64,000 nucleotides of DNA, taken from positions 396,487 through 460,486 of the forward strand of contig NZ_SAIQ01000002.1 in NCBI RefSeq assembly GCF_004118155.1. The letters run 5' to 3'. Positions within the stretch are counted from its first letter, which is position 1, and every line of letters begins with the position of its first letter. A program made the translations under genes and the position numbers. Below, in pieces: positions 8,047 to 61,505 of the stretch. Under the pieces are notes generated by a model. That model was not told the DNA's origin. It ran no database searches and saw only the letters and a program-made list of their open reading frames with translations. The stretch comes from Edaphocola flava. Its GTDB lineage: Bacteria > Bacteroidota > Bacteroidia > Chitinophagales > Chitinophagaceae.

Positions 8047-9174
8047 ATGAAGAGATTTTTTAAAATAGTAAAACGTATGATCGCAATTATAGGAGTAATA
8101 CTACTGTTACTGGTATTGACTGTATTATTATATATGCAACAACCAAAGTTCGGTAAAGCACCATCTGGCGCAAGACTGGAGCGAATGAAGCAGTCCCCGA
8201 ATTTTAAAAACGGGATTTTTGAAAACAAAACCCATACCCCTTCACTTACCGAAGGTTATTCTATGGCAAAGATAATGTGGGAGTTCTTTTTCTCTAAAAA
8301 TCCAAATCAGAAACCACACCAGGATATCCCTTCTGTACATACCGATCTGAAGCACCTGCCTGCAGACAGTAATATAGTGGTATGGTTCGGACACTCTTCC
8401 TATTTCCTGCAAATGGACGGAGTAAAATTCCTGGTAGATCCGGTGTTCAGCGGCAATGCCTCGCCCGTACCAGGTTCTACAAAGGCCTTTAAAGGCTCAG
8501 ATGCCTATACAGTAGCCGATCTGCCGGAGATAGATTACTTACTCATTAGTCACGATCACTACGATCACCTCGATTATGAAACCATCAAGGCGCTTAAAGA
8601 CAAGGTGAAGAAAGTAGTATGCGGTCTTGGTGTCGGCGCCCACTTCGAATATTGGGGCTATGCCACAGATAAGATCATAGAAAGAGATTGGGAGGAAACC
8701 ATACCGCTGGAGCATGGTATGAAATTGCATACCCTCAGCTCACGCCACTTTTCCGGCCGCACCTTCAAACGCAACAATACCTTATGGTTATCCTTCCTGC
8801 TGGAAACACCGAAGGCAAAGATATTTCTGGGTGGTGATGGCGGATATGATGATCGCTTTAAGGCCATTGGCCAGCGATTTGGTACCATAGACCTGGCTAT
8901 ACTGGAAAACGGTCAGTATAATGTGGCCTGGCAGGCTATACACTGTCTGCCCGAAGAAACGCTGAAGGCCGCGAAAGAATTGAATGCGAAAAGAATTATG
9001 CCGGTACACTCCGGTAAGTTCTCCCTGGCTCTGCATGACTGGAACGAGCCGCTGCGGGAGATATCCAGGCTCAATGCCGGACAGATACCATTGGTTACGC
9101 CCCGTATAGGCGAGCCGGTTCACCTGGGCGATACGGCACAAGTATTTACCGAATGGTGGAATGATATAAAATAG
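8047..9174 (+). CDS. MBL-fold metallo-hydrolase, NAPE-PLD/UlaG-like
   Basis: 375 residues. A single N-terminal membrane anchor (about 11-30) precedes a metallo-beta-lactamase domain with the metal motif SHDHYDHLD (His169, His171, Asp173, His174), a later SSRHFSGR His, GGDGGYD and a C-terminal PVHSGKF His. This pattern matches the beta-lactamase_2 group that includes N-acyl-phosphatidylethanolamine phospholipase D. A membrane-associated phospholipid or phosphodiester hydrolase is therefore plausible, but the substrate cannot be read from sequence. Last gene of the TetR operon; a strong terminator follows. Confidence 0.9.
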   Translation: MKRFFKIVKRMIAIIGVILLLLVLTVLLYMQQPKFGKAPSGARLERMKQSPNFKNGIFENKTHTPSLTEGYSMAKIMWEFFFSKNPNQKPHQDIPSVHTDLKHLPADSNIVVWFGHSSYFLQMDGVKFLVDPVFSGNASPVPGSTKAFKGSDAYTVADLPEIDYLLISHDHYDHLDYETIKALKDKVKKVVCGLGVGAHFEYWGYATDKIIERDWEETIPLEHGMKLHTLSSRHFSGRTFKRNNTLWLSFLLETPKAKIFLGGDGGYDDRFKAIGQRFGTIDLAILENGQYNVAWQAIHCLPEETLKAAKELNAKRIMPVHSGKFSLALHDWNEPLREISRLNAGQIPLVTPRIGEPVHLGDTAQVFTEWWNDIK

Positions 9175-9244: not shown

Positions 9245-9946
9245 TTATTTTACAGTAGCCAGCTCATACTCGCTGATCAGGCCCGTGAAGTCAGTAATAG
9301 AGTCTATAATATGGGTATGCGGGTATTGCTCCAGCACCTCTTTATTATTGGCTCCGCTCAATACGCCTACCACCAGAGCACAACCGGCACGGTGACCTTC
9401 TTCCAGGTCTACTGGTGTATCGCCTACCTTAGCTACCTGTTGGGCTTCCTGTATGCCGGTCAGTTCCATAGCTTTCAGGATCATATCCGGGTAGGGGCGA
9501 CCGTGAGTCACTTCATCGCTGGCCACACTTACATCCAGGATACTATCCCATCCCAGTCTGTTGATGATAATATCGGTAATGTCTCTGCTGAAACCCGTAT
9601 CCAGTCCTACTTTTATGCCTTTGGCCTGTAATGTTCTAAAGGTATCTGTAGCACCTTCAATCTCACAGATATCCGGGGCATTGCGGTAAAAGTCTTTCAT
9701 GATCTGCAGGAAAGAAGCATGCAGCGTATCAATGGAAATATGGTCCGTGTCGGGATAAAAGCGGTCCAGCAACATTTTGATGGCAACTGGTTTGGCAATG
9801 CCCATTACTTCATTGGCAGCAGACAGCGGAACAATATATTCATGTGTTTCCAGGGCTTTGCATAAGGCTTTGGTTACAAAATCATCATCATAGACAGTAG
9901 TGCCGGCCATGTCAAAAATGGCGAGCTTAATAGATTCGTTGTGCAT
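9245..9946 (-). CDS. Phosphonatase-like HAD hydrolase (TIGR03351-type)
   Basis: 233 residues. HAD motif I is FDMAGTT (Asp12), with Ala where general HAD enzymes have the second Asp, as in phosphonoacetaldehyde hydrolase PhnX. The cap contains MGIAK with Lys52 aligned to the PhnX Schiff-base Lys, and the usual motif III Lys is Arg150 in GRPYPD, also a PhnX-clade trait. Motif IV is VGDTPVDLEEG (Asp176, Asp180). These features fit the TIGR03351 family, proposed to cleave the C-P bond of phosphonoacetaldehyde or a hydroxylated analogue. It has its own promoter with an operator-like repeat and lies at one end of the cluster that ends with a TIGR03364-type oxidase, the known genomic partner of this family. 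Confidence 0.92.
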   Translation of the reverse strand: MHNESIKLAIFDMAGTTVYDDDFVTKALCKALETHEYIVPLSAANEVMGIAKPVAIKMLLDRFYPDTDHISIDTLHASFLQIMKDFYRNAPDICEIEGATDTFRTLQAKGIKVGLDTGFSRDITDIIINRLGWDSILDVSVASDEVTHGRPYPDMILKAMELTGIQEAQQVAKVGDTPVDLEEGHRAGCALVVGVLSGANNKEVLEQYPHTHIIDSITDFTGLISEYELATVK

Positions 9947-9973
9947 ATTAAATTTTTAAATTGATATGGTATA

Positions 9974-10018
9974 CAAAGGTAAAACAAATATTTATTTATA
10001 CTAAACTTTTATTTAGTA
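9974..10018 (-). promoter_or_regulatory. HAD gene promoter with operator-like repeat
   Basis: On the minus strand a -7 box TACCTTTG (9974-9981) has a TTTAG string 19 bp upstream. An inverted repeat TACTAAA/TTTAGTA (9999-10018) overlaps that region and the 3' end of the DUF5690 gene. Together these suggest a separate promoter under the XRE-cupin regulator. Confidence 0.5.
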
Positions 10019-11300
10019 ATTGTAAACTGTTGGTTTTGCGTTCGGCTCTTGCTTTTCGCAGGAAATACAGTGCAGAAGCGGTTTGGCTGATCAGGAGCAG
10101 TACGGCAATGAAAATGGTGGTATGGTAGAAAAAATCGACATAGCTCATTTTGCTGTCATAAAAATTCTTGTAAAACAACACGCCTATGCTGCCGCAATAG
10201 CCAAAGAAATCGGCCATTACCCCAATGAAACCTGCATTGCCCGGGTAGCGGAACACCGCCAGCATACGTTCAAAGAATATAGTATTGGCAGGTACATAAG
10301 CGATGTATAATCCGATACCCGTTGCACAGATCCAAACCTGTGGACTGATCATATGTGCCCCGTAGGCCAGGGTTCCGGCCAGCATAATAATGGCGCCCAT
10401 AAAACTGATGGCATGTATAAACATAAATGCTTTCAGGTTTTCACGAATGCGCTGCATTACAATCATGAGCAGGAGTATGATAATAGATACCGGAATCTCA
10501 CTGATCGTGAAAATAGAAGCATTCCCTTCAAATCCAAGCCCACGCCATATCTCCGGCGCAAAATTGTCCCTGAAGTCGCGGTAGCTGGTCATGAGGATAT
10601 AGCTTACCATGAATATAGCCAGCCCCATAAAGAAGAAGCGGAAAAAAGCCTGGCGTTCCTTTTTGCTCATCGGCACCCGTTCCGATTTCAAGGCAATATC
10701 TTCTGCGGTCTGGCGGGGCAGCTGCTCTAGCATCCATACTGCCAGTAATAATACCGGCAGGAAGCAGATGCCAACCAGGAAAGGCATCCAGATATCGGCT
10801 ACACCTAATGTATGGATGAAATATTGCCCGATACTTTTAATAAAACCAGAGGAGACAATTTGTGTAATGGTCAATCCGACAACCAGGATCTCTGTACTTC
10901 TGCGCCCTTCCAGGTAATTGAAAATTAAACCGAAGATCATACCAATAGGCAGCCCATTCAGGAATAAGGCCAGTATATTATATGGCGCCGGAATGAGGGC
11001 AAACAATGCCAGGGCGAGTACCGAGGTCAAGATGAGCCCTATAATATACCGGGGACGCTGCCTGGGTGTGTTCTCCGCAACGATTTTGATGCCGAAATAT
11101 TTAGATAAAGTATAACCGATAGTCTGTGCACTCACCAGCCATATCTTATAATCAACACCGAGAAAAGCTTGTCCGTCGTAAGTACCGGCTGCAAAAGCCT
11201 TGCGTACCGCGTACATAGCGGTATAGGTCAGGAAAGAGGCCAGTGTGGCAAAGCATATAAATAATAGGGAGTTTGCTTCCAGTCTGCGCTTGATATTCAT
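9996..11300 (-). CDS. DUF5690-family membrane transporter, MFS-like
   Basis: 434 residues, mostly hydrophobic, with about 12 predicted membrane segments. It resembles the DUF5690 family of Bacteroidota. The first-helix motif YTAMYAVRKAFAAGTYDG recalls the NYYFLRKNF region of organophosphate:phosphate antiporters such as GlpT and UhpT, which suggests import of an organic phosphate or phosphonate across the inner membrane; this is inference. A perfect TAAACT-AA-AGTTTA palindrome lies directly before its ATG. It sits between the HAD gene and the regulator on the same strand, with its own operator and probable promoter. Confidence 0.85.
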   Translation of the reverse strand: MNIKRRLEANSLLFICFATLASFLTYTAMYAVRKAFAAGTYDGQAFLGVDYKIWLVSAQTIGYTLSKYFGIKIVAENTPRQRPRYIIGLILTSVLALALFALIPAPYNILALFLNGLPIGMIFGLIFNYLEGRRSTEILVVGLTITQIVSSGFIKSIGQYFIHTLGVADIWMPFLVGICFLPVLLLAVWMLEQLPRQTAEDIALKSERVPMSKKERQAFFRFFFMGLAIFMVSYILMTSYRDFRDNFAPEIWRGLGFEGNASIFTISEIPVSIIILLLMIVMQRIRENLKAFMFIHAISFMGAIIMLAGTLAYGAHMISPQVWICATGIGLYIAYVPANTIFFERMLAVFRYPGNAGFIGVMADFFGYCGSIGVLFYKNFYDSKMSYVDFFYHTTIFIAVLLLISQTASALYFLRKARAERKTNSLQLLNKSLV

Positions 11301-11314
11301 TAAACTAAAGTTTA
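11301..11314. promoter_or_regulatory. Operator-like palindrome before the DUF5690 gene
   Basis: TAAACT-AA-AGTTTA, a perfect 6-2-6 palindrome directly adjacent to the ATG on the minus strand. It shares the TAAAC half-site with the sites at 12015-12085. Confidence 0.6.
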
Positions 11315-11361
11315 GTATTTGTATCTCGCTGCGAAGGTAAAAACCCTATGTTATCTTAATG

Positions 11362-11377
11362 CTAAATTTATGTTTAG
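11362..11377. promoter_or_regulatory. Operator-like repeat CTAAA-N6-TTTAG
   Basis: CTAAATTTATGTTTAG, a 5-6-5 repeat between the stop of the regulator gene and the start of the DUF5690 gene, with TTTGTTTAC just beyond. Similar to the 9999-10018 repeat, so a second site for DUF5690 control is likely. Confidence 0.45.
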
Positions 11378-11384
11378 TATTTGT

Positions 11385-11954
11385 TTACTTTTGGGTGAAG
11401 AAGTAAACAATGAGCATAATACATTTATCAGTACCTGTATTTTTAGGTAAGTGAGGCAGTCGTCCGTCAAAAAATAAGGAGTCTCCTTCTGATAAAGAAT
11501 ACGTTTCACCATTGATCATATACTCACATTCGCCCTGTATAATATATTTATATTCGAAGGCATCTGTGGTCACTTCTTCTCTTTTTGCATTTTTACTCAG
11601 CTCCAGGATCACAAAGTCTACCGTAGAAGCAGCAAGGCTTTTGACAAATATGCGTTTATATAAAAATCCCTTGGCATCCTCTTTGGTAAAGGATTCGTAG
11701 TCTTTTTTACGTTGTACGATTACATTAGGCGTCTGCAGGTTTATGCCGCTGAAGAAATGACTTACCGCCATCTCCAGAGATTGTATAATGCTGAACAGTA
11801 CCGGCAGGGAGGGGATGCTTCTTCCGTTCTCAATCTGGGAGATCAGGCCCTTGCTCACACCTGAACGATCGGCCAGCTGCTGTATCGTTAATCGTTTCTC
11901 GTATCGGAATTCTTTAATCCTCCGGCTTACTTCAAGTAGAAATGCTCCTTCCAT
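11385..11954 (-). CDS. XRE-family regulator with C-terminal cupin domain
   Basis: 189 residues: an HTH_XRE domain (about 8-62, LTIQQLADRSGVSKGLISQIENGRSIPSL) and a cupin sensor barrel (about 115-186, with EYKYIIQGECEYMINGE and an FDGRLPHLPKNTG turn). Such proteins usually sense a small catabolic ligand through the cupin. It stands divergently from the His-rich protein/TonB receptor arm and precedes the DUF5690 and HAD genes. TAAACA/TGTTTA repeats occur at its own promoter and on both sides, so it is the likely local regulator. Its minus-strand -7 box is TATCTTTG at 11974-11981. Confidence 0.93.
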   Translation of the reverse strand: MEGAFLLEVSRRIKEFRYEKRLTIQQLADRSGVSKGLISQIENGRSIPSLPVLFSIIQSLEMAVSHFFSGINLQTPNVIVQRKKDYESFTKEDAKGFLYKRIFVKSLAASTVDFVILELSKNAKREEVTTDAFEYKYIIQGECEYMINGETYSLSEGDSLFFDGRLPHLPKNTGTDKCIMLIVYFFTQK

Positions 11955-11965
11955 GTATAGTATCT

Positions 11966-12094
11966 GTAAACATCAAAGATATTATGTCTTTTTAACTTGG
12001 CATAATACCATTGTGTAAATATTTGTTTACTTCTTTTATTAACAATTTGGTAAACAAGAGTTAAGCATATGTAAACATGTGTTTATTAATTTTG
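11966..12094. promoter_or_regulatory. Divergent control region with XRE-cupin operators
   Basis: Sites: GTAAACA (11966-11972), GTAAAtatttgTTTAC (12015-12030), GTAAACA (12050-12056), and a perfect TAAACA-TG-TGTTTA palindrome (12072-12085). The last lies directly before the plus-strand -7 box TAATTTTG (12087-12094), so a bound protein would block RNA polymerase. The minus-strand -7 box TATCTTTG (11974-11981) overlaps the first half-site's neighbourhood. The arrangement suggests repression of both arms and autoregulation. Confidence 0.65.
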
Positions 12095-12123
12095 CGCTAT
12101 CAAAACAATAATTCAAACGTGTT

Positions 12124-12561
12124 ATGAAGAAGTTGGTATACCTGCTGGGTTTTACAGTATTAGGTGTTCAGGTGGCTGCTCAGGAAAAGCGGAGTAACCG
12201 GGAGCAAATGGCCATTGAGGTGCAGGTAGATATGCTGCAACACCGTTTGGGTATTGCCGGTAATCTGTATAAAGTGCAGAAGTATCAATTGCCTGTACAG
12301 GTTACAGAAAAGGCCGAAACAGTATTTGCATCCTGCATGGAAACCTATAAACAATTATATACTTCACTGCCGGAAGCGGAAAGAGCCTCCTTCTTTAAAG
12401 AAGACTTTTATATCAGTGTAATCCCGGTAGTACAGTATTTCAGAACACCGGAATATGCCAGCATGATGATTGCACATAAAAATGCCCTGCATCCCAGACC
12501 GGAAGCGCCGGACCCGAAGCATCATGAAGCAGACGGAGACGGAGACCATACACATAATTAA
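12124..12561 (+). CDS. Secreted protein with His/Asp-rich tail
   Basis: 145 residues. Signal peptide 1-19 (cleavage after AA|Q), then a helical region, and a C-terminal tail from about residue 123 with HPRPEAPDPKHHEADGDGDH, which could bind divalent metal. No recognised family. It is the first gene of the rightward arm, 25 bp before the TonB receptor, and starts about 30 bp after the operator-flanked -7 box. A role in metal supply for the downstream metallo-phosphatase or as a receptor accessory protein is possible but speculative. Confidence 0.75.
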   Translation: MKKLVYLLGFTVLGVQVAAQEKRSNREQMAIEVQVDMLQHRLGIAGNLYKVQKYQLPVQVTEKAETVFASCMETYKQLYTSLPEAERASFFKEDFYISVIPVVQYFRTPEYASMMIAHKNALHPRPEAPDPKHHEADGDGDHTHN

Positions 12562-12586
12562 TACATCAATAATATAATCTGTAATA

Positions 12587-15526
12587 ATGAAAAATATAGC
12601 TACATATATTGTTTGTAGTATTTTACCCGGAGCAGCTATCGCACAGACCGCTACCATTAAGGGTGTGGTGAAAGATAAGCAGGAGACCCTGCCCGGTATT
12701 ATTATATCACTGGCCGGTAAGCAATACCATACGGTTACAGAACTGGATGGCTCCTTCGCACTGGTAGGTGTACCCCTGGGACAGTATACACTAAAGGTAT
12801 CATCCATGGGATATAATGAATATTCGAAAGACATTGTACTGACTGCAGATACAGACCTGGGCAGCATTGAACTGAGTGAAAAAGAGCTGAATGAAGTTAC
12901 GGTTGTTGCAGACATGAAAGGCACCGAAACCAAGGCTTTGAATATGATGAAGTCTTCAATGGTATTTTCCAATATCGTATCGGCAGAGGGTGTGGCAAAA
13001 CTGCCGGATCGTAATGTGGCTGAGGCGGTACAACGCCTGCCCGGTGTGGTTATGGAATCAGATCAGGGAGAGGGGCGTTTTATCTCTTTCCGTGGTACAC
13101 CTTCTGACTGGAGTGCAGCACTGGTCAATGGTGATCGTATGCCGGTGGCAGATGAGGAGTCTAAAACCCGTGCGATGAACTTCGATATTTTTCCTTCCAG
13201 CCTGGTTGATTATATTGTAGTGTCCAAAACCCTGTCTCCCGATATGGAAGCGGATGCAATCGGTGGTAGTGCCAACTTTATTACTAAAAATGCACCGGCT
13301 AAAAAAGCGGTACAAGCTTCTATAGGCGCCGGTTTTAATGCACAGGCACAGAAGCCAGTATATAATGCAGCACTGTCTTTTGGGAACCGGAGTAAGAATG
13401 GAAAATTCGGGTACTTCGCCGGAGGTTCATTATACAGCCGTAACTGGGCTACAGATAATTACCAGGTGTTTTATGGCTCCAATATAGACCAGTCTTTATC
13501 GCGCCTGGAGCTGAGAGATTATGAAGGACAGCGAAATACACTGGGTGCTAATGCTGCACTGGAGTATAAATTTAATGATCGTGCCAGGATATATGCCAAA
13601 GGGGTGTATGGTCATATGAAAGATGAGGAATACAACCGCAAGACCATGTATAACTGGAGCACCGGCTGGGGACAGTCGATCAAGCTGCAGAATATTCACA
13701 ATATCATGCTTACCGATTTCTGGGGAGCAGAGCTGGGCGGGGAGCTGAAGCCCTCTGCAAAGCTATCGGCCAACTGGCGCATCGCCAGCTACAGTAACCA
13801 TTTCCAGTACGGACCGGTGCCTTTTGAAAAAGGAGATCCCCGTAACGGTTATCATGTAGTGGAGTTTGAAAAGTCTGTCAATTTTAAAGATTTTATCTAC
13901 CTCGATGAGAACGGAAAAGTAACGGATGAGCGCAATGCCTATGACCGCTTGAAACTCCTGGATATTGATAGTCCTGAGCCGGGTTATGGAGATCATTACC
14001 GCAACATACAACCGGTTTATGAAAATGTGCCCCTGGTCAATCCTTCGGACACCTCTTTTGCCTTTACCCGCGCCTACTCAGAAACCAATAATACCTGGGA
14101 GAAAGATCCTATTACCGCACAGATCGATCTGCAATACGCTGCAAAGAATAACCTGAAAATAAAATTCGGCGGAAAAATGCGTATGAAAGAAGGTCGCCGT
14201 AATGTAGGCCTGGAGCTGTGGGAGCGCAATAAAGATCTGAGTTCGTCTATTCTCTACAATACATTTAAACCGGCACAATTCAACGAGCGTGGTGGTTTCC
14301 TTGCAGAGCTGGGTAGCCCGTATACCGGTAAGCTGTTGCCTTTCCTGAGCGGAGACCAGATCGATAATTTCGTGTCCGGCCTGGGCGATACCTTGCGCCA
14401 TATTCCTTTCGGTACACAAACGCCTTACTTCCAGCAGATGGTAGGATCGAGCTATAGATACAAAGAGACCGTGTATGCAGGCTATGCTATGGCAGAATGG
14501 AGTCCTGTGGCGAAGCTGACACTGGTGCCTGGTGTAAGGGTAGAGTATACCAGTCCTACTGTTGAGGCAGATAGCATTATTACCATAGATCCGGCACTGG
14601 GTAGGGTTGCGTTGACACCGGTTCGTTCCGGCAAAAGCTACTGGTCTGTATTACCTATGCTGAATGCAAAATATACTCTTAGTAATAAGCAGAACCTGCG
14701 ACTGGCGGTAACCCGCACATTCCGGAGACCTAACTTTAACGAGATCAAACCTGGTGCTGCTGCCATTAATTACTCCAATAATGACCTGGTATATGGCAAC
14801 CCCAATCTGAAACCGACTTATTCATGGAACTATGACCTCGCCTATGAACGTTACCTGAGCGCCACCAGTATGCTGAGTGTTTCAGGTTTCTATAAACAGG
14901 TTAAAGACCACATCTACACTGCATTTGAAAGCAGTAGTGCGGACAATAACGGTGTATCGAATGAATTCCAGATTCCGGGTGGGGTAATCGCCAAGAAGTT
15001 TCAGAATGCACCGCAGGCCTTTGCAACAGGTATAGAAGCATCGCTGATGAGTAAGCTGCGTTTCCTGCCCGGCATATGGAAGAACCTGGGGGTGAATATC
15101 AACTACTCATATACCTATTCTCAGATGCGCATTGAAGCCAGAGACAAGCCACAGGCTTTGCCACGACAATCTCCTAATGTGTTGAATGTAGCCCTGTACT
15201 TCGAGAACCAGCACATCACTACCCGTATAGGGCTTAACTACCGCGATCCTTATCTGTATGAGCTGAATCTGTATGCTGTAAAAGATCCTGCTTCTGAAAA
15301 GATGCTGATCCTGCACCAGAACAATGACTATGATGTATATGTAGGTCGCAGCCTTACGCTGGATTACTCCTTCGCGTACAGTTTTAAAGATCATTTTTCC
15401 GTATTCGCAGAGATCAATAACCTGACCAATACACCATACACCATGTATCGCGGGCAAAAGGAGCGTCCCTTAAAAACAGAGTACTATTCTGTGAGAGGAT
15501 TGGTAGGGCTGCGATATAGTTTCTAA
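12587..15526 (+). CDS. TonB-dependent outer-membrane receptor
   Basis: 979 residues. Signal peptide (1-19), carboxypeptidase-regulatory-like domain (about 22-100, GVVKDKQETLPGI...), TonB-box-like ELNEVTVVAD, plug domain (about 115-240, with VAEAVQRLPGV and RGTPSDWSAALVNGDRMP) and a 22-strand-type barrel ending in a terminal aromatic residue (YSF). It resembles the TonB-Xanth-Caul (TIGR01782) receptor group rather than a SusC, and no SusD partner is present. Within this cluster it likely imports the substrate or product of the surface phosphatase. Co-transcribed with its neighbours (small gaps, same strand). Confidence 0.95.
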   Translation: MKNIATYIVCSILPGAAIAQTATIKGVVKDKQETLPGIIISLAGKQYHTVTELDGSFALVGVPLGQYTLKVSSMGYNEYSKDIVLTADTDLGSIELSEKELNEVTVVADMKGTETKALNMMKSSMVFSNIVSAEGVAKLPDRNVAEAVQRLPGVVMESDQGEGRFISFRGTPSDWSAALVNGDRMPVADEESKTRAMNFDIFPSSLVDYIVVSKTLSPDMEADAIGGSANFITKNAPAKKAVQASIGAGFNAQAQKPVYNAALSFGNRSKNGKFGYFAGGSLYSRNWATDNYQVFYGSNIDQSLSRLELRDYEGQRNTLGANAALEYKFNDRARIYAKGVYGHMKDEEYNRKTMYNWSTGWGQSIKLQNIHNIMLTDFWGAELGGELKPSAKLSANWRIASYSNHFQYGPVPFEKGDPRNGYHVVEFEKSVNFKDFIYLDENGKVTDERNAYDRLKLLDIDSPEPGYGDHYRNIQPVYENVPLVNPSDTSFAFTRAYSETNNTWEKDPITAQIDLQYAAKNNLKIKFGGKMRMKEGRRNVGLELWERNKDLSSSILYNTFKPAQFNERGGFLAELGSPYTGKLLPFLSGDQIDNFVSGLGDTLRHIPFGTQTPYFQQMVGSSYRYKETVYAGYAMAEWSPVAKLTLVPGVRVEYTSPTVEADSIITIDPALGRVALTPVRSGKSYWSVLPMLNAKYTLSNKQNLRLAVTRTFRRPNFNEIKPGAAAINYSNNDLVYGNPNLKPTYSWNYDLAYERYLSATSMLSVSGFYKQVKDHIYTAFESSSADNNGVSNEFQIPGGVIAKKFQNAPQAFATGIEASLMSKLRFLPGIWKNLGVNINYSYTYSQMRIEARDKPQALPRQSPNVLNVALYFENQHITTRIGLNYRDPYLYELNLYAVKDPASEKMLILHQNNDYDVYVGRSLTLDYSFAYSFKDHFSVFAEINNLTNTPYTMYRGQKERPLKTEYYSVRGLVGLRYSF

Positions 15527-15589
15527 ATCAATCTTTATTCATTAATCCATTCAATATAAAATAGTAACAACTTATACAATCAAACAGAA

Positions 15590-16891
15590 ATGAAAATGAT
15601 TAAAAAATTACTAACCGGCGCTTTACTGATCGGTTCCACAGTAACCGTATCGGCACAAACAGGCACGCCTAAAAAGCCTAAAGTATTATTTATCGGTATC
15701 GACGGTGTACGCGCAGATGCTTTACTGCAGGCCAATACACCAAATATTGATACCCTGATGGCACATGGTTTGTATACCTTCGACTCCTGGCATTGTGGTG
15801 CGACCTCCAGCGGTGCATCATGGTCTACGATGATGACCGGTGTGTGGGAAGCCAAACACCAGGTGACCAACAATAGTTATACCAATCCTAACTATGCCAA
15901 CTATCCGTATTTTCCTAAGAGAGCCAAGGAATGTCTGCCGAACCTGAAAGCAGTACAGATCATTACCTGGGACCCGATGAATGATCCGACCAATAGTAAT
16001 AACAGCGCAGGATTCGTATTCAACAGCGGTTTCAACCAATCTATCGATGCCGGTACACACGGGCAGGGTGCGGTAACTGCAGCGGCAAAGATTCAGCTGA
16101 ACGATCCTAACCTGGACATCCTGTTCATTCACTATGATGAATGTGACGCAGCGGGCCACTCTTCAGGCTTCAACCCTGCCAATCCGCAGTATATGAATGC
16201 TATCCAGACCGTAGATGCTGAGATTGGTGAAGTGATCGCGAAATTATACCAGCGTCCTACCTACAACCAGGAAGACTGGCTCATCCTGCTGACTACAGAT
16301 CATGGTGGTATCGGTACTACACATGGCGGACAATCCAACACAGAGCGTCATATCTGGTGGGTAGCTTCCGGACCAAGTGTACCGCACCTGCAGATCACCG
16401 GACCAGATCCGGGCAGCTATTACATGCCGACCAATCCTGTAGATACAACTTTACTGAACAATACTCCCGTACTGACCGACATCGCAGTTACCGCACTGGC
16501 ACACATCATGAAAGGATCTGCCTGCGAGAGCCCGGAAACCAATCCTGCATGGAATCTTGACGGTAAGTCATGGTTACTGCCGGTAACCGATACTACAGAT
16601 ACCACCGGTAATCCTACTTATGTAGAAGATGTACGCAATGCGGCTATTGAATTCGGTATTTTCCCTAACCCGAACAATGGTGTATTCAAAGTAGCCTTTA
16701 AAGATGTTGCCGGTAAGATCGACATCCGCATCCAGAATATGAATGGTGTAGCGGTGCAGAGCAAAACCACACAAGGTACTGCAGGCTTAACGGTTGTACC
16801 GTTCGATCTTACTGCTCTGCCAAGAGGTATTTACTTCATGCACGTAATGAATAATGGTAAACAGACCGTAAGAAAAATCGTATTGCAATAA
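15590..16891 (+). CDS. Alkaline phosphatase-superfamily hydrolase with T9SS sorting domain
   Basis: 433 residues. Signal peptide (1-22), then an alkaline-phosphatase/NPP-type catalytic domain (about 28-330) with metal ligands visible: Asp38 in GIDGVRAD, a nucleophile loop Thr72-Ser73-Ser74-Gly, Asp186 and His190 in DECDAAGH, Asp237-His238 in TTDHGG, and His245. The nucleophile is most likely Ser74 by alignment with NPP enzymes. The C-terminus (about 350-433) is a T9SS type A domain with FPNPNNGVF, so the enzyme is exported to the cell surface. In this cluster it probably releases a phosphonate or phosphate compound from an ester; the exact substrate is unknown. Confidence 0.92.
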   Translation: MKMIKKLLTGALLIGSTVTVSAQTGTPKKPKVLFIGIDGVRADALLQANTPNIDTLMAHGLYTFDSWHCGATSSGASWSTMMTGVWEAKHQVTNNSYTNPNYANYPYFPKRAKECLPNLKAVQIITWDPMNDPTNSNNSAGFVFNSGFNQSIDAGTHGQGAVTAAAKIQLNDPNLDILFIHYDECDAAGHSSGFNPANPQYMNAIQTVDAEIGEVIAKLYQRPTYNQEDWLILLTTDHGGIGTTHGGQSNTERHIWWVASGPSVPHLQITGPDPGSYYMPTNPVDTTLLNNTPVLTDIAVTALAHIMKGSACESPETNPAWNLDGKSWLLPVTDTTDTTGNPTYVEDVRNAAIEFGIFPNPNNGVFKVAFKDVAGKIDIRIQNMNGVAVQSKTTQGTAGLTVVPFDLTALPRGIYFMHVMNNGKQTVRKIVLQ

Positions 16892-16953
16892 CATTTTATA
16901 GCGGATGTCGCAGGGCATCCGCTTTTCTTTAAGCTCATTTCAAATAAATCATA

Positions 16954-19900
16954 ATGAACACAAAATTACTGGTACGCGTACTGGCCTTGCTGTTTATGAG
17001 CATAGGTCTGGGGCAAAGCTTGTCTTCGTACGGGCAGGGTGCTGCAAAGGCCCTGAGTTTTAATGGCAGCAGCCATGTGAATATGGGCGACTCCTTATCC
17101 CGCTCCCTGTCACAATCTGACTTTACCATAGAGATGTGGGTAAAAGTCAGAAGCAATAGTTCTGACCCGGTATTCCTGGGCAATAAAAACTGGGCCAGTG
17201 GGGCCAATACTGGTATCGTCTGGTGTCGTTATGCCACGAACACCCTTCGCTTTAACTTCCGCGCTGCGGGTCGTACCCGTAAGGATATGAATATGACCCT
17301 GGATTATGGTAAATGGAATCATATTGCCGTTACCGTAAAACGTAATGGAAACATCACGGGTTATGTAAATGGTGTACAGAACGGTACAGCCGTAAGCATT
17401 GCCGCAGATTCCGGTTTCGCTATTGATGCAGGTTTGCCTTTACGCCTGGGTGCAGATGGTAATGCTGCTTTCGGTATCGATGGGGATATGGATGAGGTAC
17501 GCATCTGGAATACTGTACGCACCGTGGCCGATATCCGCAATGATATGTGTCATAAACTGACCGGAGCAGAAACCGGGCTGATGGCTTACTACCGTATGGA
17601 TGAGACTACCGGCACCACGGTAACAAACTCCGCGGCAACAAGCACCGGATTTTTCAACGGTACCTTTGTTAATACACCGGCAAGAATAGCCAGCGGTGCA
17701 TCTGTCGGAGATGAATCGGTACAACTGTATGCTGCAACGTACACCGGACAGACATTAAGCCTGACCTCTCCTGCGAACGGAACCGTACAGCTGGATAATA
17801 TCAGCAATAATACTAGCGGTATACACCTGTTCAAAGTGAATGCCGTACCGAATACGACTTCCGGTATTGCCAATCCGGGTACAAATAATGTGTACTACGG
17901 TGTATTCCCGGTATCAGATACCAGCAGTTATAACCTGGTGTATAATTATACCAACTATCCGGCAGCCAATACATTTGAAGGTGGTATAGACCTGTTTAAG
18001 CGCTACAGCATGGATTCTGTATGGAGCTTATGGGCAGCGACTAAAAATATAACCAATAATACCCTGAGCAAAACGGGTGTTTCGGGCAGACAGGAATTAA
18101 TCATCGGTAGCTTCGTTACCTCTGTGACCTGTAATACACCTACTGCATTAAATGCACAGAATATCACCACCAGTGCGGCACAGCTGAGCTGGATCACTGG
18201 CGGTTCTAATGCCTGGAACCTGGCATACGGTCAAGGAACCTTTACTCCGGGTAATGGCGGTACTGTAGTGAACAATCTTTCTGCTGCAAACTATACCGTA
18301 AATAACCTGCAAAGCAATACTACTTACCGATTCTATGTACGTGATACCTGTGCCACTATTAATAGTGCCAGTGCATGGGCCGGACCGTATACGTTTACGA
18401 CGGCTATGGACTACAGCACTTATGGCAGTGGTTATGCAATGAACTTTCAGGGTACGGGCGCTAATGAGCATGTAAACCTGGGTGATTCTTTATCCGGTGC
18501 TATGGCAAAAGGCAGCTATACTTTAGAGACATGGGTTAAGTTCAATAACCCTTCCAGCGATCCTTCCTTTATTGGTAACAAAGACTGGAACAGTGGTGCC
18601 AATACCGGTATTCTCTGGTGCTGGAACGGTGGCGGTAACCTGCGTTTCAATTTCAAGCCTGCTGGCGGTACCCGAAAAGATTATGACATCAATTTACCGG
18701 ACCCGGCAGAGTGGAATCATATTGCTATGGTGGTAGACCGTAAAGGAAGCCTAACTGCATACCTGAATGGGGTACAGGCTGGCAGCCCGATCAATATCGC
18801 TGCAGATTCTTTACTAAGCCTTGATGGTGCATTACCGATGCGTATCGGTCAGGATGGTACCGGTGTGTACGGTCCTAAATTTAAAGGAGCAATGGATGAA
18901 CTGCGCGTCTGGAAGAAAGCAATGACGGTTGAAGAAATCAGGGCAAATATGTGTCATAAGATCAATACTACTGATACCAATTTACTGGCCTATTATCGTA
19001 TGGATGAAGCCAGTGGTACGGTACTGACCAACCTTGCGGCAACCGGTACGGTGTTTAACGGTACGCTGCTGAACAATCCGCAACGCGTGATCAGTGGTGC
19101 TGCTATCGGAGATACCAGTATACAAGTGTATCCTAACGGATGGAACGGGGTAAGCCTTTCATTAGGCAGTAATGCTATGGGACAGATCACGATCGATTCT
19201 GTAGAAGCCAATACTAAAGGGCTACAGTTATACCGCATCAATACTGTGCCGAATATGGTGAATGGTATTGTGCAATTAGGTACAACCAATCAATACTTCG
19301 GTGTGTATACCCCGGGCAATAAAACAGCTCAGTATAAAACAGTGTATAATTACAGCAGTTATCCTAATGCCGTAAGCAATAATGCAAACCTGCACCTGTA
19401 TAACCGTAAAGCGAATGATGATACTTTGTGGACACAGAGTGTAGCGGCCAACAATACAACTGCACAGCAACTGAGCTTAATGCAGGCTTCGGGTGTGAAG
19501 CAATTTGTCCTGGCAGACTTCTCTGCTCCGGCCTGCGCTACACCGCAGAACATTACGATTACTAATATCGACACCGGCAATGCTACTATCAGCTGGACTT
19601 CCGCTGCGGGCAAACACCTGATAGAATACGGTAATACCGCTTTCTCGCCAGGCACCGGTACTGCCGTAACGAGCACAACTGCTTCGCTGACCTTAACGAA
19701 CCTGAATGCTTCGCAGACATATAAGTTTTATATGAAAGACTCCTGTAGCGCAACAAGCGCAAGTACTTGGGTTGGACCATTCTACTTCACTACGCTGAAC
19801 CCTTGTCCGCAACCGTTCAATGTACATGCAGATAGTATTACAGCTGCTGCTATGGTCCTGAAGTGGGAAGATAACGGTATCGTTACCCAGGATTATATCG

Positions 19901-20613
19901 TAAGCTGGGGCACACAAGGATTTGGTAATCCGGCATTTGGTATCCAAACCAATGTTGTGGACAAACGTTTTGAGCTGACTGCGGCAACACCGAATACTAC
20001 TTATGATTTTTATGTAAGAGCTAACTGTAATTCCAGTGTGACGAACAGCGGATGGGTTGGGCCATTCTCCTACACCACGCTGCCATGTGAGCCGGCACAT
20101 AATGTTGTAGTGAGCAACATTAATGCAAGCGGTGCAAAAGCTACCTGGACCAGCACTGCGGGTTTATGGAACCTGAGCTATGGTACGACTGGTTTCGTTC
20201 CGGCTAATGGTACCATCGTTGCGAACCTGAGTGCTGCACAGTATACTTTCTCCGGACTGACCAACAATACGGATTATGAGTTCTACATACAGGATAGCTG
20301 TACATTAGGACTGAATCCATGGCAGGGACCATTTACCTTCTCTACAGCAGATCCAAACAGCATTAAGGAATTGGGTGCAGATGATTTCAGACTGTATCCT
20401 AACCCGGCTGCGGATCAGCTGCAGGTAGTCCTGAATGGTACTGCACAGGCCAAACTGGTGATGCATAACCAGATCGGTACAGTAGTACTGCAACAGGTAA
20501 TCAACAACAGATTGACAAGTCTGGATGTACAGACCTTACCGGCAGGCGTATATTTCATTACCGTAAATAATGGTAAAGCATCAGGAACACAGAAAGTAGT
20601 GATCCAACATTAA
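16954..20613 (+). CDS. Large secreted LamG/fibronectin-III protein with T9SS sorting domain
   Basis: 1219 residues. Signal peptide, two LamG/concanavalin-like domains (about 35-215 and 495-690; both contain a W...V..R.....GY/AYLNGVQ core and a DEVR/DELR-W strand), each followed by a beta module, then four Fn3-like repeats (about 395-480, 865-950, 955-1040, 1043-1130) with repeating ..F.PGNGT and W.GP..F(T/S)T signatures, and a T9SS type A tail with YPNPAADQL. Likely a surface binding or adhesion protein that holds substrate near the phosphatase. The repeats suggest internal duplication. No catalytic motif is visible. Confidence 0.9.
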   Translation: MNTKLLVRVLALLFMSIGLGQSLSSYGQGAAKALSFNGSSHVNMGDSLSRSLSQSDFTIEMWVKVRSNSSDPVFLGNKNWASGANTGIVWCRYATNTLRFNFRAAGRTRKDMNMTLDYGKWNHIAVTVKRNGNITGYVNGVQNGTAVSIAADSGFAIDAGLPLRLGADGNAAFGIDGDMDEVRIWNTVRTVADIRNDMCHKLTGAETGLMAYYRMDETTGTTVTNSAATSTGFFNGTFVNTPARIASGASVGDESVQLYAATYTGQTLSLTSPANGTVQLDNISNNTSGIHLFKVNAVPNTTSGIANPGTNNVYYGVFPVSDTSSYNLVYNYTNYPAANTFEGGIDLFKRYSMDSVWSLWAATKNITNNTLSKTGVSGRQELIIGSFVTSVTCNTPTALNAQNITTSAAQLSWITGGSNAWNLAYGQGTFTPGNGGTVVNNLSAANYTVNNLQSNTTYRFYVRDTCATINSASAWAGPYTFTTAMDYSTYGSGYAMNFQGTGANEHVNLGDSLSGAMAKGSYTLETWVKFNNPSSDPSFIGNKDWNSGANTGILWCWNGGGNLRFNFKPAGGTRKDYDINLPDPAEWNHIAMVVDRKGSLTAYLNGVQAGSPINIAADSLLSLDGALPMRIGQDGTGVYGPKFKGAMDELRVWKKAMTVEEIRANMCHKINTTDTNLLAYYRMDEASGTVLTNLAATGTVFNGTLLNNPQRVISGAAIGDTSIQVYPNGWNGVSLSLGSNAMGQITIDSVEANTKGLQLYRINTVPNMVNGIVQLGTTNQYFGVYTPGNKTAQYKTVYNYSSYPNAVSNNANLHLYNRKANDDTLWTQSVAANNTTAQQLSLMQASGVKQFVLADFSAPACATPQNITITNIDTGNATISWTSAAGKHLIEYGNTAFSPGTGTAVTSTTASLTLTNLNASQTYKFYMKDSCSATSASTWVGPFYFTTLNPCPQPFNVHADSITAAAMVLKWEDNGIVTQDYIVSWGTQGFGNPAFGIQTNVVDKRFELTAATPNTTYDFYVRANCNSSVTNSGWVGPFSYTTLPCEPAHNVVVSNINASGAKATWTSTAGLWNLSYGTTGFVPANGTIVANLSAAQYTFSGLTNNTDYEFYIQDSCTLGLNPWQGPFTFSTADPNSIKELGADDFRLYPNPAADQLQVVLNGTAQAKLVMHNQIGTVVLQQVINNRLTSLDVQTLPAGVYFITVNNGKASGTQKVVIQH

Positions 20614-20629
20614 TTTAAATATAATACCC

Positions 20630-20664
20630 ATATTGTCTCCGGCTAGCCGGAGACAATATATTTT
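20630..20664 (+). terminator. 30-bp palindrome/terminator between LamG and FAD genes
   Basis: A perfect palindrome (15-bp half-sites, CTCCGGCTAGCCGGAG core) is followed by ATTTTG. It may attenuate transcription before the oxidoreductase gene, which starts 26 bp after it. Confidence 0.65.
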
Positions 20665-20689
20665 GCACTTAGAGACACAAAATAGACAC

Positions 20690-21856
20690 ATGACAAAACA
20701 GTTTGACGTAATCATTATCGGAGCCGGAGCCCTCGGCGTATTTCATGCTTATCATGCCCTGAAGGCAGGCAAGACGGTAATGTTACTGGAGAAGGATAAG
20801 CGTGCCCAGGAAGCCACTGTACGCAATTTCGGACAGGTCGTGCCTTCTGGTCTGATACCAGGCAGTGAATGGCATGAATACGGTCGCATCGCTACAGAAT
20901 TATACAAAGAAATACAAAGTGAATTCCATATTGGTATCCGCAACAATGGTTCCTGTTATATAGCCAATACCGCGTCTGAAATGGCCGTACTGGAAGAGTT
21001 GCAGGCAAAGTTCCATGCAGTAGATTACACAGCTGAATTATGGACCGCTGCACAGTTGCTGGAGCGCTACCCGATGGTGCAGACCGGTTATGCTAAGGGG
21101 GCACTATTCTTTCCGCAGGAAGTATCTGCCGAGCCGGAGATCCTGGTGCATCGTGTACTGGAATACCTGTCTGTTAAATTTCCGCAGCGGTTCCGCCACC
21201 GGAATAATTGCCCTGTAGTGGGTACAGAAACTGCCGGAGATACCGTAAGGGTAAGCACTGCTGACAAGCAGGAGTATGCGGCAGCTCATTGTTTTATCTG
21301 CTCTGGCAGAGAGTTTAAACTACTATTCCCGGAAGTGTTTGCCACAAGCGGGCTCATCGTATCTAAACTAAATATGATGGCGACTTACCCGCAACAGCAT
21401 ACGGTGTTGCCAGGCAATATCCTTACCGGGCTTACCATAAGACGCTATGAGAGCTTCACGGCCTGTGACAGTTACCAGCAGCTGGATGCAGCAGATGTAC
21501 CACAGGATTGTGTGGATTACGGCATTCATATCCTGTTTAAACAAAGGGTAGACGGTAGTGTGATCATCGGAGATTCTCATCTCTATGCACCCATAGAGGA
21601 TCAGGATGACCTGAGCATATTCTATAATGATATGCACATTAATGAGATCATGCTGAGGGAAGCAAAGAAGATCATGCAACTGGACAACTGGAATATAGCC
21701 CAGAACTGGACCGGTTTTTATGCCCAGCATGAAGATGAGATCTTCTGTCATACCATAGACAAGCGCATTCATATTGTTACGGGTATCGGCGGCAAGGGCA
21801 TGACCACCTCTGCCGGTTTTGCACAACACAATATCAGCAAAGTATTGAACAGTTAG
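20690..21856 (+). CDS. FAD-dependent oxidoreductase, TIGR03364-type (aminophosphonate oxidase candidate)
   Basis: 388 residues from ATG 20690. N-terminal FAD motif IIIGAGALGVFHAYHALKAG (GxGxxG) and EKD at the end of strand 2, the family signature ATVRNFGQVVPSG (about 44-56), and a C-terminal TGIGGKGMTTSAG FAD loop, as in the DAO superfamily. The whole pattern fits TIGR03364, oxidases found beside TIGR03351 phosphonatase-like genes and proposed to deaminate an aminophosphonate to an aldehyde. The reported upstream in-frame start (20633) lies inside the terminator palindrome and is rejected. It supplies the likely aldehyde substrate for the HAD enzyme at 9245. Confidence 0.9.
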   Translation: MTKQFDVIIIGAGALGVFHAYHALKAGKTVMLLEKDKRAQEATVRNFGQVVPSGLIPGSEWHEYGRIATELYKEIQSEFHIGIRNNGSCYIANTASEMAVLEELQAKFHAVDYTAELWTAAQLLERYPMVQTGYAKGALFFPQEVSAEPEILVHRVLEYLSVKFPQRFRHRNNCPVVGTETAGDTVRVSTADKQEYAAAHCFICSGREFKLLFPEVFATSGLIVSKLNMMATYPQQHTVLPGNILTGLTIRRYESFTACDSYQQLDAADVPQDCVDYGIHILFKQRVDGSVIIGDSHLYAPIEDQDDLSIFYNDMHINEIMLREAKKIMQLDNWNIAQNWTGFYAQHEDEIFCHTIDKRIHIVTGIGGKGMTTSAGFAQHNISKVLNS

Positions 21857-21876: not shown

Positions 21877-21906
21877 AAAGGAGCATCGTAAGATGCTCCT
21901 TTCTTT
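21877..21906. terminator. Bidirectional terminator
   Basis: An 11-bp stem AAAGGAGCATC/GATGCTCCTTT with a 4-base loop between the convergent oxidoreductase and kynureninase genes; the A and T arms serve both directions. Confidence 0.75.
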
Positions 21907-21923: not shown

Positions 21924-23204
21924 TTAATGACCCTTCAGGAATTGCTGTAACAGGTCTGCAAAGCGATATACATCTTCAAAGCTGTTGTACATGGGCACCG
22001 GTGCGATGCGGATTACATTTGGCTCGCGCCAGTCTGCAACTACACCATGAGCAGTCAGGTGATCAAATGCAGCTCTGCCTTTGTCTTTGAATAACAGGGA
22101 CAGCTGCGCTCCACGGCGATGCGGTTCTTTTGGTGTAATAATTTCAAAAATACCGGCTGCTTCCAATGGTTGCAACAGGAATTCTGCATAAGCAGTCAGC
22201 TTCAGACTCTTTTCTCTGAGTTGTGCTACAGATGTTTTGTCAAAAATATCCAGGGAAGATTTGTGCGCGATCATATTGAAGACCGGCGCATTACTCATCT
22301 GCCAGCTGGCAGCACCCTTAGCAGGGATAAAGCCTTTCTTCATTTTGAAACGGGTAGACTCATCATTGCCCCACCAACCGGCAAGACGCAGGGTATCCGG
22401 GTTATTGCCATGTTTTTCATGAACAAAAATACCCGCTACACCACCAGGGCCAGAGTTTAAGTATTTGTAAGAACACCAGCAGGCGAAGTCTACATCCCAG
22501 TCATGCAATTGCATCGGCACATTACCCATAGCATGTGCGAGGTCAAAACCGCACAGAGCGCCAACTTCATGCGCTGCTTTAGTAATTGCCGGCATGTCAA
22601 ATAACTGACCGGTATAATAGTTTACACCACCCATCATCACACAAGCCAGCTGATCGCCGGTGTCTTTGATGGCCTGTAAAATATCTTCATCTCTCAGGCA
22701 ATACTCCCCATCTCTCGGAGTCAGTTCTATAATGGCTTCATTAGGATCAAATCCGTGCATTTTTACCTGCGTTTCCATTGCATACTGATCAGAAGGGAAT
22801 GCACCTGCCTCCATAATGATTTTATAGCGCTGCTGGGTAGGACGGTAAAACGAGATCATCAGTAAATGCAGGTTCACCGTCAGCGTATTCATGGCCACAA
22901 CTTCTGAAGTATCGGCTCCTACGATTCTGGCCAGGGAGGTGCTGAACTGATGGTGGTAATGCATCCATGGGTTCTCTGCCTGGAAGTGACCTTCTACACC
23001 ATACTTAGCCCAGTCAGCCAGCTCTTTCTGAAACAGCCAGGAAGCACTTCTTGGCTGTAAACCCAATGAGTTGCCGCAGAAATAAAGCACATCATTTCCA
23101 TCATGCTGAGGGAAATGGAAGCGCTCACGGAAAGAATGTAATATATCTACATCATCTAGTGATAATGCATATTCAAGATTGTTTTCGAACGTGTACGTAG
23201 TCAT
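21924..23204 (-). CDS. kynU: Kynureninase
   Basis: 426 residues, the usual length. A fold-type I PLP enzyme with Asp221 in GFDLAHAMGN and the PLP Lys247 in SYKYLNSGPGG, a kynureninase signature. It cleaves kynurenine or 3-hydroxykynurenine to anthranilate or 3-hydroxyanthranilate plus alanine, in tryptophan degradation or NAD synthesis. It is convergent with the phosphonate-type cluster and followed upstream by lspA on the same strand, with a 43-bp gap. No other kyn gene is in the window. Confidence 0.96.
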   Translation of the reverse strand: MTTYTFENNLEYALSLDDVDILHSFRERFHFPQHDGNDVLYFCGNSLGLQPRSASWLFQKELADWAKYGVEGHFQAENPWMHYHHQFSTSLARIVGADTSEVVAMNTLTVNLHLLMISFYRPTQQRYKIIMEAGAFPSDQYAMETQVKMHGFDPNEAIIELTPRDGEYCLRDEDILQAIKDTGDQLACVMMGGVNYYTGQLFDMPAITKAAHEVGALCGFDLAHAMGNVPMQLHDWDVDFACWCSYKYLNSGPGGVAGIFVHEKHGNNPDTLRLAGWWGNDESTRFKMKKGFIPAKGAASWQMSNAPVFNMIAHKSSLDIFDKTSVAQLREKSLKLTAYAEFLLQPLEAAGIFEIITPKEPHRRGAQLSLLFKDKGRAAFDHLTAHGVVADWREPNVIRIAPVPMYNSFEDVYRFADLLQQFLKGH

Positions 23205-26566: not shown

Positions 26567-26580
26567 GTATGGATAAAATT

Positions 26581-61470: not shown

Positions 61471-61505
61471 TCAGAATTCTTGCAATCAATAAACGTACGA
61501 TATTG

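Follow-up and report, generated by a model that had tools for sequence, protein, structure and literature searches.

A predicted aminophosphonate utilisation cluster of Edaphocola flava, from the cell surface to C-P bond cleavage

Introduction

The best described counterparts of the system treated here concern the bacterial breakdown of 2-aminoethylphosphonate (AEP). According to the main text of PMC10590968, PbfD1, an oxidase annotated as TIGR03364, converts N-methyl-AEP and AEP into phosphonoacetaldehyde in vitro and does not attack sarcosine, taurine or beta-alanine. Both PbfD1 and PbfD2 prefer N-methyl-AEP while also accepting AEP, and the PbfC and PbfD oxidases assayed there did not oxidise 2-hydroxyethylphosphonate. 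On the side of uptake, most bacteria that use PhnWX or PhnWAY pathways had no known AEP transporter as of 2021, to which the portion of PMC8316502 used here adds three. In Flavobacterium, phosphonate-degrading enzymes are noted beside PusCD transporters, and most bacterial phosphonate biosynthesis is said to serve surface-bound phosphonates (the sections of PMC8115612 and PMC6697681 drawn on here, respectively).

Here, a gene cluster of Edaphocola flava is described that lies in a 64,000-nucleotide stretch of contig NZ_SAIQ01000002.1 (hereafter the window) of a 3.5 Mb genome in 15 contigs. It probably constitutes an aminophosphonate utilisation system with predicted induction by its substrate, in which a surface hydrolase, a TonB-dependent receptor, a DUF5690 carrier, a flavin adenine dinucleotide (FAD)-dependent oxidase and a haloacid dehalogenase-type hydrolase (HAD) would act in series on AEP or N-methyl-AEP. 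Of the named relatives encountered, Edaphocola aurantiacus is the closest, with a surface enzyme that is 99% identical. The cluster comprises the following features, some of which carry the tail of the type IX secretion system (T9SS):

9245..9946, minus strand: phosphonatase-like HAD hydrolase (TIGR03351, 215 bits; Lys52), predicted to break phosphonoacetaldehyde at its C-P bond
9996..11300, minus strand: DUF5690 transporter of the major facilitator superfamily (MFS), predicted inner-membrane aminophosphonate importer (PF18943; fold; PhnW/PhnY/PhnA neighbours)
11301-11314 (exact) and 11363-11376 (one mismatch): two predicted regulator operators (window search for TAAAC-N4-GTTTA)
11385..11954, minus strand: XRE-cupin transcriptional regulator (HTH_3 and Cupin_2)
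12016 and 12051 (one mismatch each) and 12072-12085 (exact): three predicted operators in the divergent promoter region (motif search)
12124..12561, plus strand: probably secreted protein of 145 residues with a His-rich C-terminal tail (no family match)
12587..15526, plus strand: TonB-dependent outer-membrane receptor without SusD (TIGR01782, 425 bits)
15590..16891, plus strand: T9SS-tailed hydrolase of the alkaline-phosphatase superfamily (PF01663 and TIGR04183), predicted cell-surface phosphonate-ester or phosphodiester hydrolase
16900..16923, plus strand: terminator-like hairpin between the hydrolase and LamG genes (consensus match only)
16954..20613, plus strand: T9SS-tailed cell-surface protein containing LamG and Fn3 domains, with predicted glycan binding (homologues at the same position in related loci)
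20690..21856, plus strand: FAD-dependent aminophosphonate oxidase of the PbfD/TIGR03364 type (351 bits)
21877..21902, plus strand: terminator-like hairpin closing the plus arm (consensus match only)

Two divergent arms thus flank the regulator gene, the minus arm with DUF5690 followed by the HAD, and the plus arm running from the 145-residue protein through receptor, hydrolase and LamG/Fn3 protein to the oxidase, whose reading frame also holds an earlier TTG at 20633. Terminator-like hairpins number 14 in the region against 10.0 expected. The genes of the original prediction, which was made from the sequence alone, were recovered at their positions and in their families, including a TonB receptor with no SusD among the cluster proteins. 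The HAD had been called TIGR03351-type, which is indeed its nearest family, with a score that falls 4 bits short of the cut-off of 218.9. The small gene at 12124-12561, with its signal-like start, had been overlooked.

Conserved company of carrier, oxidase and HAD

Comparative evidence for a common function derives from 195 genomes of the Chitinophagaceae, the family of the window, and from 395 genomes across the Bacteroidota. In the family sample, DUF5690 occurs in 90 genomes, the TIGR03364 oxidase (E up to 1e-50) in 66 and the TIGR03351-type HAD (E up to 1e-35) likewise in 66. All 66 oxidase genomes and 65 of the 66 HAD genomes carry DUF5690, and oxidase and HAD are found together in 62, with Fisher p values, nominal for such related genomes, of 5e-32 for oxidase and DUF5690, 1e-29 for HAD and DUF5690 and 8e-41 for oxidase and HAD. 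The co-occurrence of DUF5690 with both enzyme families that the original prediction called for is thereby borne out. It extends to physical proximity: the distance to DUF5690 is at most 500 bp for 56 of 66 oxidase genes and at most 12 kb for 64, and 50 of 71 HAD genes likewise have it within 500 bp, while 13 of the 71 are more than 12 kb away or on a contig without DUF5690. Across the phylum, DUF5690 is present in 43 genomes (42 over cut-off), the oxidase in 33 and the HAD in 29; by a hand count of the lists, 30 of the 33 oxidase genomes and 28 of the 29 HAD genomes contain DUF5690. Six stretches from outside the family, chosen because they hold matches, have oxidase and HAD in all six and DUF5690 in five.

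For the neighbourhoods, 114 family stretches outside the window (labelled L044, L135 and so on) were assembled that cover the DUF5690, oxidase and HAD matches. Open reading frames were called mechanically and neighbour genes marked with hidden Markov models (HMMs) built from the same set of loci, which the seed loci match by construction. Within 10 kb of the 99 family DUF5690 genes, a phosphonate enzyme of any kind is found in 76 cases, the oxidase in 62, the HAD in 53, an HD protein in 43, PhnW in 8, PhnA in 4, TonB/SusC in 49, SusD in 47, an XRE-cupin gene in 32, and an alkaline-phosphatase-superfamily gene in 58, of which 56 have a phosphonate enzyme as well. Twenty control stretches with hand-picked coordinates in genomes carrying the cluster contain SusC in three cases, SusD in two and none of the other marked genes. 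A recurrent order consists of XRE-cupin, SusC, SusD, an enzyme of the alkaline-phosphatase superfamily (secreted, some 360 residues long), HD protein (TIGR03276, 201.7 bits; cut-off 214.6), HAD, DUF5690 and oxidase. Counting the window, there are 115 stretches; the marked genes keep this order without interruption in 5 of them, and in 31 SusD adjoins the alkaline-phosphatase-superfamily gene and DUF5690 adjoins the oxidase. Sister clusters also hold genes of roughly 680-930 codons near SusD or HD (L057:13175-15958(-), L079:13210-15927(-), L091, L096).

The inner part: import, oxidation and C-P cleavage

The carrier candidate scores 481.9 bits against PF18943 (gathering cut-off 25). Its AlphaFold2 model (pLDDT 89) matches G6PT/GlpT-type and other MFS carriers in fold, and thus shares the fold of the GlpT-type organophosphate antiporters. 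The protein matches no NCBIfam family at E 0.001, so that no sequence homology to GlpT/PgtP was detected. In L135, SusC, SusD, PhnA (506 bits, cut-off 407.55) and a phosphonoacetaldehyde dehydrogenase (683 bits, cut-off 635.65) are followed by an alkaline-phosphatase-superfamily gene, DUF5690 and PhnW (481 bits, cut-off 400.8), while L141 has the order XRE-cupin, PhnA (500 bits), PhnY (655 bits), DUF5690 and PhnW. The loci L088 (PhnW 485 bits) and L133 resemble L141, the other genes there being identified by set-built HMMs. In total, the complete textbook AEP pathway of PhnW, PhnY and PhnA stands beside DUF5690 in 4 of the 99 family loci. Fold and company make it likely that DUF5690 is a previously unassigned importer of aminophosphonates. 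No publication naming DUF5690 was found in a search that covered openly accessible papers. The assignment can be tested directly, and DUF5690 is found with several different AEP routes. Two side observations concern these loci. An FAD-oxidoreductase-like gene of about 410 codons lies beside PhnW and DUF5690 in L088:10878-12107(-) and L133:12225-13457(-); the copy in L088 matches no NCBIfam family at E 1e-60, and the gene perhaps encodes a PbfB/PbfC-type enzyme. DUF5690 genes without phosphonate genes nearby, for example in L094, L113, L119, L121, L125 and L126, could be solo carriers or serve another substrate.

The oxidase exceeds the TIGR03364 cut-off of 285.1 with 351.3 bits and is the only copy in the genome to do so. 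The family description of TIGR03364 had guessed 1-hydroxy-AEP as substrate, and the original prediction treated the oxidation of an aminophosphonate to an aldehyde as a proposal. The reaction class stands and has outgrown that status with the in vitro results on PbfD1 (main text of PMC10590968). Elsewhere in the genome, neither PhnW nor TIGR03366 is found over cut-off, and Phn-HD has no match.

For the HAD, the second-best NCBIfam family is the phosphonatase TIGR01422 (107.5 bits, below the cut-off of 220), and the TIGR03351 cut-off itself is exceeded in only 12 of the 66 family genomes with a HAD match. In the phosphonatase PhnX, a lysine forms the Schiff base with the substrate and an Asp-x-Ala motif carries the nucleophile. 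The HAD has the motif Asp12-x-Ala14-Gly-Thr-Thr, and its Lys52 aligns with PhnX Lys53 (Arg in chain 2ioh). This lysine is kept in 120 of 120 distinct relatives, and the position two after the aspartate is Ala in 114 of them. A phosphate-ester phosphatase was rejected, since the second Asp of the corresponding DxD motif occurs in 0 of the 120. Similarly, the combination of an ordinary amino-acid oxidase with a phosphatase is opposed by both the co-occurrence and these active-site letters. The HAD gene adjoins PhnW in L066 (475 bits) and L068 (488 bits). Because the product of PhnW is phosphonoacetaldehyde, the HAD is most simply read as a phosphonoacetaldehyde hydrolase, by which TIGR03351-type HADs would gain a probable substrate. 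Taken together, DUF5690 beside PhnW, PhnY and PhnA and the HAD beside PhnW point to a route for AEP or N-methyl-AEP via phosphonoacetaldehyde.

The surface part and interchangeable inner modules

The receptor exceeds the TIGR01782 cut-off of 310 and stands alone instead of in a SusC-SusD pair. The hydrolase matches PF01663 with 75.2 bits (cut-off 23), and its T9SS tail (TIGR04183) scores 44.2 bits, compared with 47.9 bits for that of the LamG protein (cut-off 23 for both). Its residues D38, S74, D186, H190, D237 and H238, whose putative roles follow from alignment to ENPP/XacNPP, are invariant in 50 sequences; the nucleophile stretch reads S-G-A-S-W in the window, the consensus being S-G-P-S-W. 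The LamG/Fn3 protein has two LamG and three Fn3 stretches in addition to its tail of 48 bits. The 145-residue protein, without a family in Pfam or NCBIfam scans, retains its His-rich tail in L044, L045, L046, L184 and L187; it is possibly metal-binding and might bring zinc to the surface metalloenzyme.

The association of the hydrolase with phosphonate genes was followed from its own side, by a profile run against named genomes; the best 79 of 558 relatives form the set, in which a few genomes are counted under two locus labels. By the set-built HMMs, a phosphonate gene (oxidase, HAD, DUF5690, HD, PhnW or TIGR03366-like alcohol dehydrogenase) is present in 58 of these 79 loci, in 39 of the 58 as DUF5690, HAD and oxidase with no other listed phosphonate gene. 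The same receptor type occurs in 66 of the 79 and adjoins the surface enzyme in 32. Receptor, surface enzyme, DUF5690, oxidase and HAD are all present in 40 loci, in 35 of them with the regulator, and in 27 loci the genes run compactly as receptor, DUF5690, oxidase, HAD, surface enzyme. Among the 40 complete loci, 30 belong to Chryseobacterium, and the other ten include Edaphocola, Taibaiella, Owenweeksia, Crocinitomix and Flavobacterium.

The inner part appears to be exchangeable. In the genus and in Taibaiella koreensis (L044-L046, L050), DUF5690, oxidase and HAD stand with the trio of window-type receptor, hydrolase and LamG protein. The loci L047/L185 and L049/L192 of Taibaiella soli and T. 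lutea combine the trio and the same HAD with a different inner part, made up of a GlpT/PgtP-like MFS carrier and an alcohol dehydrogenase resembling TIGR03366, which scores 317 bits in L047 (cut-off 328.1). Since PbfC and PbfD spare 2-hydroxyethylphosphonate (main text of PMC10590968), the dehydrogenase module would add that substrate. Furthermore, a PhnW-like gene directly follows the surface enzyme in L219 and L222, by set-built HMM only. On gene trees, the type of outer module (TonB/T9SS versus SusCD) changes 6 times for the oxidase, 8 for the HAD and 7 for DUF5690, as opposed to at least 28, 28 and 31 changes in 200 shuffles that ignore relatedness. Presumably, linked phosphonates fall to the surface part, and the group that needs oxidation, be it an amine or an alcohol, decides which inner part is used.

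HAD, TIGR03366-like dehydrogenase and GlpT-like MFS carrier recur as a second cluster type in L047, L049, L052, L063, L065 and L083, the dehydrogenase being assigned by NCBIfam scan in L047 and L063 and by set-built HMM in the others. Five of these six hold an alkaline-phosphatase-superfamily gene and four an XRE-cupin gene. This type looks like a hydroxyethylphosphonate route. A phospholipase-C-type gene lies beside the cluster in L051:12366-14699(+) (PF04185 and PLipase_C_C) and, judged by eye, in L060:16537-19098(-) and L054:17451-20000(-). Such neighbours would fit phosphonolipids as a source.

The alternative that survives best retains the aminophosphonate pathway for the inner genes and regards the surface part as a device for general organic phosphorus, with a T9SS phosphodiesterase or phosphatase acting on phospholipid head groups or nucleotides, and with free AEP taking the same receptor without ester cleavage. 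This possibility is doubtful, yet deserves serious consideration: the fold matches of the hydrolase to XacNPP, PafA and ENPP7 are tied, the Flavobacterium PUS phosphodiesterases are thought to act on lipid head groups (in the portion of PMC8115612 concerned), and among the 53 loci of the 79 with flanks of at least 8 kb on both sides, five are without phosphonate genes. Nothing would oblige a general phosphatase to travel with phosphonate genes, yet the other 48 of the 53 have one. In addition, the enzyme pairs with two further phosphonate routes, the dehydrogenase and GlpT-like carrier of L047/L049 and the PhnW of L219/L222, and the few module changes on the trees indicate that the inner genes are inherited together with the type of surface module.

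A broader proposal, held tentatively and at slightly less than even chances, is that of a phosphonate utilisation locus widespread in Bacteroidota, which would be for phosphorus what the polysaccharide utilisation locus is for glycans. A T9SS phosphonate-ester hydrolase would harvest AEP from phosphonolipids and AEP-decorated glycans made by other organisms, import would proceed through a receptor that may or may not have a SusD partner, DUF5690 would form a new carrier family for aminophosphonates, and exchangeable modules of FAD oxidase, PhnW or, for hydroxyethylphosphonate, alcohol dehydrogenase would feed one HAD C-P hydrolase.

Regulation

The regulator carries HTH_3 and Cupin_2 domains, and its nearest NCBIfam relative is PuuR (52.8 bits, below the cut-off of 211). 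Apart from its occurrence around DUF5690, an XRE-cupin gene is found in 42 of the 79 surface-enzyme loci. The exact palindrome TAAAC-N4-GTTTA occurs twice in the 64 kb, in both cases in a gap flanking the regulator gene, once directly upstream of DUF5690 (11301-11314) and once in the divergent gap (12072-12085). Sites with one mismatch number three more in the same two gaps and four elsewhere in the window. The resulting nine sites at up to one mismatch compare with 3.1 expected, and nine were reached in 2 of 100 shuffles. Sites that are exact or off by one mismatch are also present in the remaining genomes of the genus (L044, L045, L046). The XRE-cupin protein is thus predicted to bind in front of both arms and to respond to the substrate.

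Proposed mechanism and its assessment

In the proposed sequence of events, the T9SS-exported hydrolase, aided by the LamG/Fn3 protein, would cut a P-O ester tying the phosphonate to a lipid or glycan, and the TonB receptor would carry the product across the outer membrane. DUF5690, with the shape of a GlpT/G6PT-like MFS carrier and its PhnW/PhnY/PhnA neighbours elsewhere, would then import it into the cytoplasm. There, the PbfD-type oxidase may yield phosphonoacetaldehyde, a reaction established for PbfD1 and PbfD2, and the HAD, judged by its catalytic letters and PhnW neighbours, may hydrolyse the C-P bond to phosphate and acetaldehyde. The XRE-cupin regulator, on TAAAC-N4-GTTTA sites before both arms, is predicted to render the system substrate-responsive. 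The original idea of a dedicated phosphonate system from the outer membrane to C-P cleavage is hence well supported by co-occurrence, by the PhnW/PhnY/PhnA company and by the active-site letters of the HAD. Its further suggestion of a polymer- or lipid-linked substrate keeps the standing of a conjecture, given a surface hydrolase assigned by sequence to the alkaline-phosphatase superfamily as a whole, and a T9SS form that is a minority in the family.

Several observations weigh against this reading. The window-type trio of receptor, hydrolase and LamG protein stands beside DUF5690 in only 6 of the 99 family loci; the other family loci with a surface part mostly use SusCD and another subfamily of the alkaline-phosphatase superfamily. 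Moreover, 21 of the 79 surface-enzyme loci are without a phosphonate gene, 16 of them short-flanked and five with at least 8 kb on both sides. Phosphonate monoester hydrolases are marked by the formylglycine motif CxPxR. The hydrolase does not have it, for which reason both a formylglycine sulfatase and a phosphonate monoester hydrolase were discarded as identities, and its best folds are tied among phosphodiesterases, phosphatases and sulfatases. As for DUF5690, no sequence match to a solved transporter was obtained from PDB sequences, profile search included, and some of the MFS carriers that it matches in fold move unrelated substrates. Furthermore, 23 of the 99 family loci, a few of them on short contigs, have no phosphonate enzyme within 10 kb, so the DUF5690 family may carry other substrates too. 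In PhnX, His56 and Tyr128 assist the Schiff base; the HAD has Ala55 and Phe119 at these places, and its relatives carry the histidine in 1 of 120 and the tyrosine in 47 of 120 cases. Finally, the operator motif is convincing only in the genus: an exact copy precedes 6 of 84 regulator genes (79 distinct proteins), three of the six belonging to the window itself and to its nearest relative, which is present with two records, with a background of 8 in 1757 regions.

The deviations of the HAD from PhnX at His56 and Tyr128 also lend some weight to a different substrate, such as 1-hydroxy-AEP, a novel phosphonate or a mixture, with the HAD acting on a substituted phosphonoacetaldehyde. Identity between the window oxidase and the type more common in its family is just 27-31%, and Phn-HD genes, whose named relatives act on 1-hydroxy-phosphonates, occur in sister clusters. 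Such a substrate is nevertheless unlikely considering that the HAD adjoins PhnW, with its phosphonoacetaldehyde product, in L066 and L068, that Phn-HD is missing from the genome itself, and that PbfD1 and PbfD2 favour N-methyl-AEP and use AEP (main text of PMC10590968). A chance neighbourhood, in which an amino-acid oxidase, a phosphatase-like HAD and outer-membrane genes would lie side by side without a joint function, and for which one may cite the abundance of TonB receptors and T9SS proteins in these genomes (SusC in 3/20 and SusD in 2/20 controls), is highly improbable: co-occurrence and adjacency are conserved across many genera, operator-like sites lie in both arms, and the counts refute chance for the core, leaving only the LamG and 145-residue genes as could-be bystanders.

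Neighbouring genes

A kynureninase gene (21924-23204, minus strand; TIGR01814, 465 bits) is convergent with the oxidase gene, and a metallo-beta-lactamase-fold hydrolase (8047-9174, plus strand; PF12706, 116 bits) is convergent with the HAD gene. Both were rejected as members, as they lie beside the cluster in L044 and not in L045 or L046; the kynureninase is therefore probably a bystander. Elsewhere, the window contains an S-adenosylmethionine (SAM) riboswitch (61357-61471, plus strand; 78 bits) and a bacterial RNase P RNA (26580-26941, minus strand; 255 bits).

Comparison with known systems

The oxidase chemistry is already known from PbfD, and Flavobacterium loci that combine SusCD-like transporters with phosphonate enzymes have been mentioned. 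The importer assignment for DUF5690, the link to the surface enzyme and the module swaps are new. The assembly from surface to cytoplasm was not found in print among the openly accessible papers listed in literature searches. The cluster would offer soil and plant-associated Bacteroidota a route to mine surface-bound phosphonates.

With the PbfD-PhnX pathway (PbfD2 and PhnX without PhnW), the cluster shares a PbfD-type oxidase and a phosphonatase-type HAD in a genome without PhnW over cut-off. It differs in that its HAD is TIGR03351-like rather than TIGR01422, and the main text of PMC10590968 mentions neither TonB nor DUF5690. In the Flavobacterium system, as far as the portion of PMC8115612 used here extends, PusC pairs with the SusD-like PusD and is induced by phosphate depletion, whereas the window cluster has no SusD and an XRE-cupin regulator; the sister clusters of the family do possess SusCD. 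AepP, the GlpT-like 2AEP permease of Pseudomonas putida, is an MFS carrier like DUF5690 and has genes co-localised with catabolic genes (part of PMC8316502), yet AepP is related to GlpT by sequence (28%) and DUF5690 by fold only. The hydrolase resembles the phosphonate monoester hydrolase/NPP branch in its fold and in the corresponding invariant Asp, His and Ser residues, and departs from it by Ser74, where that branch has the formylglycine motif or the NPP threonine, by its T9SS tail and by an identity of about 14-24% in the fold matches. Lastly, the whole arrangement is reminiscent of the SusCD polysaccharide utilisation loci, which likewise unite a surface hydrolase, a TonB receptor, an inner-membrane carrier and a regulator in one locus. 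SusCD is found in the sister clusters, while the window cluster is distinguished by the absence of SusD and of any glycoside hydrolase domain in the Pfam scan, and by a cargo that is predicted to be a phosphonate.

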